In this document: one piece after another, positions 54,877 through 56,160 of the stretch
Layout of the letters: the number at the start of each line of letters is the position of its first letter
How positions within the stretch are numbered: position 1 is the stretch's first letter
Source: Gemmatimonadota bacterium
Lineage (GTDB): Bacteria; Gemmatimonadota; Gemmatimonadetes; Longimicrobiales; Gaopeijiaceae
Length of the DNA: 64,000 nt
Direction: 5' to 3'
NCBI GenBank assembly: GCA_007126575.1
Contig: SLBA01000051.1
Coordinates: 1 to 64,000 of the forward strand
Translations under genes and position numbers: made by a program
The notes under the pieces: model-generated
Seen by the model: the letters and a program-made list of their open reading frames with translations, nothing else
The model's database searches: none
What the model was told of the DNA's origin: nothing

Positions 54877-55455
54877 ATGCAGGTCATCATCCACGCCGAC
54901 GAATCCTGCCTGGGGAACCAGTTCAAGGACCGCAGCAATCCCGGCGGCGCCGCCGGCCTGGTGGAGTTCTGGACCGGGTCGACCTGGAAGCGTCGGGATT
55001 TCTGGCTCTCGGAACCGGGCACCACGAACAACCGGATGGCCATCCGGAGCGCCATCGAGGGTCTGAGCGGGCTGAAGCGTCCCTGCCGCGTGCGTTTTGT
55101 CTCCGATTCCCAGTACCTCGTCAAGGGCATGAGCGAGTGGATCCATGGGTGGAAGCGGCGTGGGTGGAAACGAAAGGGGGGCGCGATCGAGAACGTGGAG
55201 CTCTGGAAGGCGCTCGACCGTGCCAGCCAACGCCACGAGGTCGACTGGGAGTGGGTGCGCGGGCACGATGGGAATCCCCGCAACGAGTACGTGGACTTCC
55301 TGGCCGTCCAGGCCGCCCGGGAGCAGACTCGGTCCGGCGGCTTCGTGGAATCGGGCTTCGAGGCCTGGCTCGAATCCGAGCGGGAGGAGCGCGGTCGCTA
55401 CTTCGACTTCTTCGAGTCGGCCCCGCCCTCCGAGCGGGATTCGGAGTCCGGCTGA
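54877..55455 (+). CDS. RNase HI-like protein with altered active site
   Basis: A 192-residue RNase H-fold protein (start at ATG 54877; ATG 54841 would add 12 residues). It keeps the first Asp (D8 in IIHADESCLGN), the central Asp (D77 in FVSDSQYLVKGM), the His loop (WVRGHDGNPRNEY, H130) and the last Asp (D140). The Glu of the NNRME motif (E48 in E. coli) is Ala55 here (TTNNRMAIRSAIEGL), and the DGS after the first Asp is DES. A short insert (FKDRSNPGGAAG) and about 40 extra C-terminal residues are also seen. Its last 58 bases overlap lipB on the other strand. Confidence 0.8.
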   Translation: MQVIIHADESCLGNQFKDRSNPGGAAGLVEFWTGSTWKRRDFWLSEPGTTNNRMAIRSAIEGLSGLKRPCRVRFVSDSQYLVKGMSEWIHGWKRRGWKRKGGAIENVELWKALDRASQRHEVDWEWVRGHDGNPRNEYVDFLAVQAAREQTRSGGFVESGFEAWLESEREERGRYFDFFESAPPSERDSESG

Positions 55456-56129
55456 CACCCGAAGGTCTCCGCCATGGCCTCGATCACCCGGTCCATGACA
55501 CGGTCCATCGAGACAGGCTGCCCCAGGAGCTCCTCCAGCGAGGTCACGGCCCGCTGCTCGAGCCCGCAGGGCACGATCGAGTTGAAGTAGTCGAGATCGG
55601 TCGTCACGTTCAGCGCGAACCCGTGAGAGGTGATCCACCCCGAGGACACCCGGACTCCAATCGCCGCTACCTTCCCTCGTTCGGTCCACACCCCCGTGAA
55701 TCCGGCCGCTCTGCGCCCCTCGATTCCGAAGGCGTCCAGAACGAGGATGAGCGCGGACTCGAGATCCCGCAGATACCGGTGGAGGTCCTTCCGGTCGGGC
55801 TTCAGGTCGAGGATCGGGTAGCCCACGAGCTGTCCGGGACCATGGTAGGTGATGTCTCCGCCACGCCCGGACTCGAAGAGCTCGATCCCCCGCTCCGCCC
55901 GCTCCCGCTCGTCCGCGAGCAGGTGGGACCGATCCGTGCCGGTCCCCATGGTGATCACATGAGGATGTTCCAGGAGAAGCAGCTGATCGGGCACCCGTCC
56001 CGCCCGGCGGTGCCCGACCAGCTCCTCCTGCAGCTTCAGCCCATCCCCATAGGGGACGAGGCCCAGCCTCCGCACCTCGAGAGGCCGACGGAGTGCGGCC
56101 GGTGGGGGCTCGCTACCGGGCCTCTGCAT
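55398..56129 (-). CDS. lipB: Octanoyl-ACP:protein octanoyltransferase LipB
   Basis: First step of lipoate attachment; it moves octanoyl from ACP to lipoyl domains such as the one in the adjacent E2. About 243 residues. Motifs are LLLEHPHVITMGTGTDRSHL, SGRGGDITYHGPGQLVGYPI, GVWTERGKVAAIGVRVSSGW (catalytic Lys), SHGFALNVTTDLDYFNSIVP and the Cys in PCGLEQRAVTSLEELL. The start is ATG 56127-56129; an in-frame TTG lies 24 bases upstream. The lipoyl synthase gene lipA is not in the window. Confidence 0.95.
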   Translation of the reverse strand: MQRPGSEPPPAALRRPLEVRRLGLVPYGDGLKLQEELVGHRRAGRVPDQLLLLEHPHVITMGTGTDRSHLLADERERAERGIELFESGRGGDITYHGPGQLVGYPILDLKPDRKDLHRYLRDLESALILVLDAFGIEGRRAAGFTGVWTERGKVAAIGVRVSSGWITSHGFALNVTTDLDYFNSIVPCGLEQRAVTSLEELLGQPVSMDRVMDRVIEAMAETFGCQPDSESRSEGGADSKKSK

Positions 56130-56160
56130 GGCGACGACCGATCCGCTGCTCAACGCCTGC

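Follow-up and report, generated by a model that had tools for sequence, protein, structure and literature searches.

A type 1 RNase H gene from a Gemmatimonadota bacterium that resembles LC9-RNase H1, with the catalytic glutamate probably relocated

Introduction

A passage in PMC8900815 gives Asp10 and Glu48 as the ligands of metal B in E. coli RNase HI, and Asp10, Asp134 and Gly11 as those of metal A. Since Gly11 is among the metal A ligands, the residue at this position lies at the metals. A Glu placed there could plausibly reach them, by analogy with RNase HII.

The closest described enzyme was deposited in the PDB as 4ibn, under the title 'Crystal structure of LC9-RNase H1, a type 1 RNase H with the type 2 active-site motif'. 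The LC9-type arrangement of the active site is already known from this one crystal structure, and the subfamily considered here is not new. The structure paper of 2013 (Nguyen et al.) is said to have described the move of the Glu from helix A to strand 1 and to have given mutational proof of its catalytic role. Reportedly, the enzymatic properties of LC9-RNase H1 resemble those of RNase H1. The motif of LC9 appears as DEDN in the title of a paper in a reference list. A passage of the review PMC6411959, on Kanaya et al. 2010, states that twelve type 1 RNase H genes were obtained from a compost library by complementation and that one of them lacked the DEDD/E motif yet was active. The text of another review, PMC9719913, does not mention LC9. 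In the open-access literature we found no publication joining RNase H1 with a Gemmatimonad, and none that deals with the distribution of this subfamily across the phylum, with the variation at the fourth position or with the replacements described below. We take the enzyme without the DEDD/E motif, unnamed in the review that reports it, to be LC9, and the source of LC9-RNase H1 is presumably a compost metagenome.

The DNA analysed in this study (the window) is a stretch of 64,000 nucleotides from a Gemmatimonadota bacterium (assembly GCA_007126575.1, contig SLBA01000051.1). The original prediction for this DNA described one of its genes as an RNase HI missing the catalytic Glu, and proposed that either the neighbouring E9 supplies the carboxylate or the protein only binds RNA-DNA hybrids and does not cut.

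Results and Discussion

The gene and its features are listed below.

54877..55455, + strand: RNase HI gene, 192 aa, with the type 2-like motif D8-E9/A55/D77/H130/D140
54898..54903, + strand: codons of D8 and E9, the first catalytic Asp and the putatively relocated Glu (Gly11 in E. coli)
54919..54933, + strand: insert after GN, residues 15-19 (QFKDR), relative to canonical rows
55039..55041, + strand: codon of A55, at the site of catalytic Glu48 in E. coli RNase HI
55105..55107, + strand: codon of D77 (D70 in E. coli)
55264..55266, + strand: codon of H130 (H124 in E. coli)
55294..55296, + strand: codon of D140 (D134 in E. coli, Asn in 4ibn, N/D/H in the subfamily)
55339..55452, + strand: C-terminal extension, residue 155 onward, with conserved G155, S159, F161 and W164

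The ATG at 54877 is plausible as the start codon, since most alignments with homologues set in at residues 1-5, although the open frame could be extended upstream to 54358. The reading frame is open, and E9 and A55 are seen in all readable rows of the type described below, which rules out a pseudogene or a sequencing slip. The protein matched the Pfam family RNase_H (PF00075) with E 3.8e-32 and 111.8 bits against a curated cut-off of 25.8. No other family was found in the Pfam scan, RNase HII (PF01351) included. With the NCBIfam equivalog for ribonuclease HI (PRK00203) the score was 150.1 bits, below the cut-off of 160. In the window as a whole, neither Rfam nor a tRNA scan gave a match.

We aligned the window protein with E. 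coli RnhA, taken from NC_000913.3. The two proteins share 44% identity over 149 aligned residues and the type 1 fold. D8, D77, H130 and D140 stand opposite D10, D70, H124 and D134, which bears out the active-site assignment of the original prediction. The differences lie at two other positions: Gly11 of E. coli is replaced by E9, so that the window protein reads DES in place of DGS, and Glu48 by A55, so that it reads NNRMA in place of NNRME. The helix A Glu of canonical bacterial RNases HI is therefore not present. Unlike the E. coli enzyme, the window protein also carries the insert and the C-terminal extension. Both had been noticed before and both are real. The insert comprises five residues (15-19) relative to the canonical rows L037 and L040, and has pLDDT below 50 in the predicted model. 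Four residues of the extension are near-invariant in the aligned rows (G155 in 67/70, S159 in 70/70, F161 in 69/70 and W164 in 70/70).

The sequence, the fold match, the co-occurrence of residues, the single branch in the tree and the pattern of replacements, all given in this section, lead us to consider the window protein very probably a type 1 RNase H like LC9-RNase H1 that is catalytically active, with its catalytic Glu relocated to E9. The Glu of helix A (E48 in E. coli) would have shifted to strand 1, where it follows the first Asp immediately, an arrangement shared with RNase HII, and A55 would be the position that it vacated. The side chain of E9 would join D8 and D77 in binding the divalent metals. 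With D140 as the putative fourth ligand, a full type 2-like D-E-D-D set would be placed on a type 1 scaffold. The cellular role would be the housekeeping one of an RNase HI, cutting RNA in RNA-DNA hybrids alongside an ordinary RNase HII.

The best PDB match of the window protein by sequence was 4ibn (E 8.1e-53; the next match had 1.6e-35), and the alignment of 4ibn shows the same pair of motifs, DES and NNRMA. The two proteins are 54% identical over 163 aligned residues. We predicted the structure of the window protein from nine input sequences (pLDDT 87.9, pTM 0.85). The top Foldseek match of the model was again 4ibn (E 2.0e-21), and VIA-align gave Z 23.8 and rmsd 2.5 with 185 residues aligned, covering model residues 1-189 and thus the C-terminal extension. 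Chlorobium and E. coli RNase HI followed with Z of approximately 20 over 140-143 residues, so the best matches of the model all have the type 1 fold. There are two differences from 4ibn. 4ibn has one residue fewer between GN and PGG, and its fourth position is Asn, as in DEDN, compared with Asp (D140) in the window protein.

In order to follow these positions among relatives, we used an alignment of 82 rows. Seventy-two rows were of the DES type (the window protein, 4ibn and 70 loci of 70 other genomes) and ten were other RNases HI, including that of E. coli. Position 9 was unreadable in six rows, namely L079-L082 (contig ends or trimming) and L038 and L039 (trimming); the trimmed part upstream of L038 and L039 reads dgsg. 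E9 was found in 68/68 readable rows of the DES type and A55 in 72/72, and the two occurred together in all 68 rows readable at both positions. Gly and Glu were paired in 8/8 readable rows of the other RNases HI. A55 at the old site, and the Glu after D8, are thus as the original prediction described them and recur throughout the type. The expression 'missing catalytic Glu' is misleading, since the Glu was most likely relocated. Of the two alternatives proposed, the one in which E9 supplies the carboxylate is strongly favoured by the DES and NNRMA motifs of 4ibn, by the type 2 motif in its title and by the co-occurrence of E9 and A55.

Another acidic residue might have replaced Glu48 instead. 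The candidate named beforehand was E61, which lies six residues past A55 in the same predicted helix (51-64). However, position 61 was Glu in only 37/68 rows, compared with 68/68 for E9, and the remaining rows had Ala, Val, Gly, Asp, Leu, Gln, Arg or His. We rejected E61 on this conservation and give almost no weight to a substitute of this kind.

The other positions were conserved to a different degree. D77 was present in 72/72 rows of the DES type and H130 in 70/70 readable ones, and D8, E9, D77 and H130 were invariant wherever they could be read. Position 140, unreadable in L083 and L084, was Asn in 49, Asp in 13 and His in 8 of the 70 readable rows. As Asn or His occupies it in 57/70, conservation does not extend to the acidic quartet as a whole, and the Asn of DEDN marks LC9 and not the clade. 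The uniform Ala at the Glu48 position and the frequent Asn or His at the fourth would suit a degenerate RNase HI that binds RNA-DNA hybrids or R-loops without cutting. Against this stand the invariant D8, E9, D77 and H130, as well as the active enzyme without the DEDD/E motif that was found by complementation (PMC6411959, in its passage on that work). Further evidence on this alternative comes from the distribution of the gene, and is given below.

We built a quick tree of 75 rows, in which columns 9, 55 and 140 were marked for dropping and L039 and L079-L084 were left out. The DES type formed one side of a single branch with SH-aLRT 96, with 66 rows, including the window protein and 4ibn, against nine outside. 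The distinct subfamily that had been proposed is in agreement with this branch. 4ibn paired with L062 inside the clade, so the window protein and LC9 belong to the same clade in this tree. The state at position 9 changed once, and the switch from Gly/Glu to E9/A55 needs one change on the tree. The state at position 140 changed at least 13 times among the DES-type rows, a rough figure given that 34/72 inner branches are open.

It is possible, and we put it forward tentatively, that after the move of the Glu the fourth metal ligand was free to vary between Asn, Asp and His throughout the class, with the lineage of the window having the complete acidic quartet. The variants would then differ in metal use or cleavage specificity. 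If true, they would show that the active site of an RNase H can be rebuilt without loss of function.

We also considered an active enzyme with a specificity shifted towards that of RNase HII, such as cleavage at isolated ribonucleotides within DNA. The adjacent Asp and Glu are common to the window protein and RNase HII, whose single match in the same genome (PF01351, on contig C98) contains the run DEVGRG, and the window protein has Asp at the fourth position. However, that RNase HII belongs to another family and is retained as a separate gene, the window protein matches RNase_H only, its fold and closest matches are type 1, and LC9-RNase H1 is reportedly RNase H1-like in its enzymatic properties. 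We regard such a shift as very improbable.

We looked for other RNases H in the same genome, a check that the original prediction had proposed. Besides the one RNase HII, the window gene was the sole PF00075 match (assembly 96.5% complete), and we could therefore reject a second RNase HI that covers for it. Further, we searched 395 sampled genomes of the phylum. The window protein had matches in 368 and none in 27. We count the DES-type gene in 364/395 genomes, because the sole RNase_H gene found in G015, G200, G286 and G068 is of another kind; this count rests on E-values (6.8e-27 or better), and residues were read in 70 genomes, some of them outside that sample. With a canonical NNRME query, strong matches (E 2.1e-75 or better) were obtained only in G015, G200 and G286 (3/395). 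All other genomes gave 4.9e-26 or worse, and among the places listed these were the DES-type gene itself.

In G015, G200 and G286 the DES-type gene was not found, also not at their carA-lipB junctions (L100 in G015, L098 in G200 and L101 in G286). In each of the three, carA and lipB share a contig stretch, where their aligned ends are approximately 0.2, 1.1 and 0.6 kb apart. G304, of the same genus as G015, has the DES-type gene at the carA-lipB junction. We saw no sampled genome with both the DES type and that canonical type. The simplest reading of this replacement pattern is that DES-type and canonical enzymes are functionally equivalent. The three canonical proteins grouped together in the quick tree. 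The absence of the gene just where the canonical enzyme was found (three genomes), and its position as the sole PF00075 match of its own genome, also argue against a protein that binds hybrids without cutting, and we consider the latter very unlikely.

Judged by the active site of E. coli, the active enzyme that we favour would look dead. A gene of its type nevertheless serves as the RNase HI in most genomes sampled from the phylum (364/395), and annotation based on Glu48 would misread it. The clade offers natural Asn, Asp and His variants at the fourth position together with three genomes in which a canonical enzyme stands in, and is useful for studies of how two-metal active sites are rearranged.

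Judging from their sequences, most sampled relatives in one bacterial class have the DES arrangement. Families f8 and f10 of this class were without the DES type in the few genomes sampled. We searched 40 genomes, picked by hand, with PF00075 and obtained no match in eight, where an RNase HI gene is either not needed or was missed through gaps in the assembly. The 40 included ten genomes negative in the protein search. Of these ten, G316, G396, G039, G041, G213, G206, G207 and G233 gave no match, and G141 and G310 a different, weaker one. Genomes of other families of the phylum have a different RNase HI with TNNQAEY or TNNEAEY (L086 of G141 and L085 of G068). G152 and G180 had two DES-type places each on separate contigs, possibly assembly duplicates, and G091 had a second, weak RNase_H match.

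A scan of genome contigs gave eight loci, four of the DES type and four others with NNRME or SQRME. In two sampled phyla other than this one, we searched with one strict motif, a 21-base pattern for DESCLGN, and obtained hits in 2/398 and 2/297 genomes. When translated, the four places yielded no match to the window protein (best tblastn E 0.10). The control in relatives was positive in 16/19; its pattern had M and those for the other phyla Y at one base, and all 16 sequences fit both. The misses were G039 and G041, which have no protein match, and G035, which reads DESCLGV. Members of the DES type may occur outside the phylum. A mobile origin was rejected, as a scan of viral contigs found no relative of the window protein and all matches in phage (330) and plasmid (737) records had less than 60% identity to it.

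In the family and order of the window, carA was located beside the DES-type gene, often together with lipB, and carA was also present in f7 and f9 loci. Neither was seen beside it in f4, f5 and f6 loci within flanks of approximately 1.5 kb. In the window, the RNase HI gene on the + strand and the convergent lipB ORF on the - strand (55398-56153) overlap at their 3' ends by 58 bases (55398-55455). An overlap of RNase HI and lipB matches was observed also in L004 and L006.
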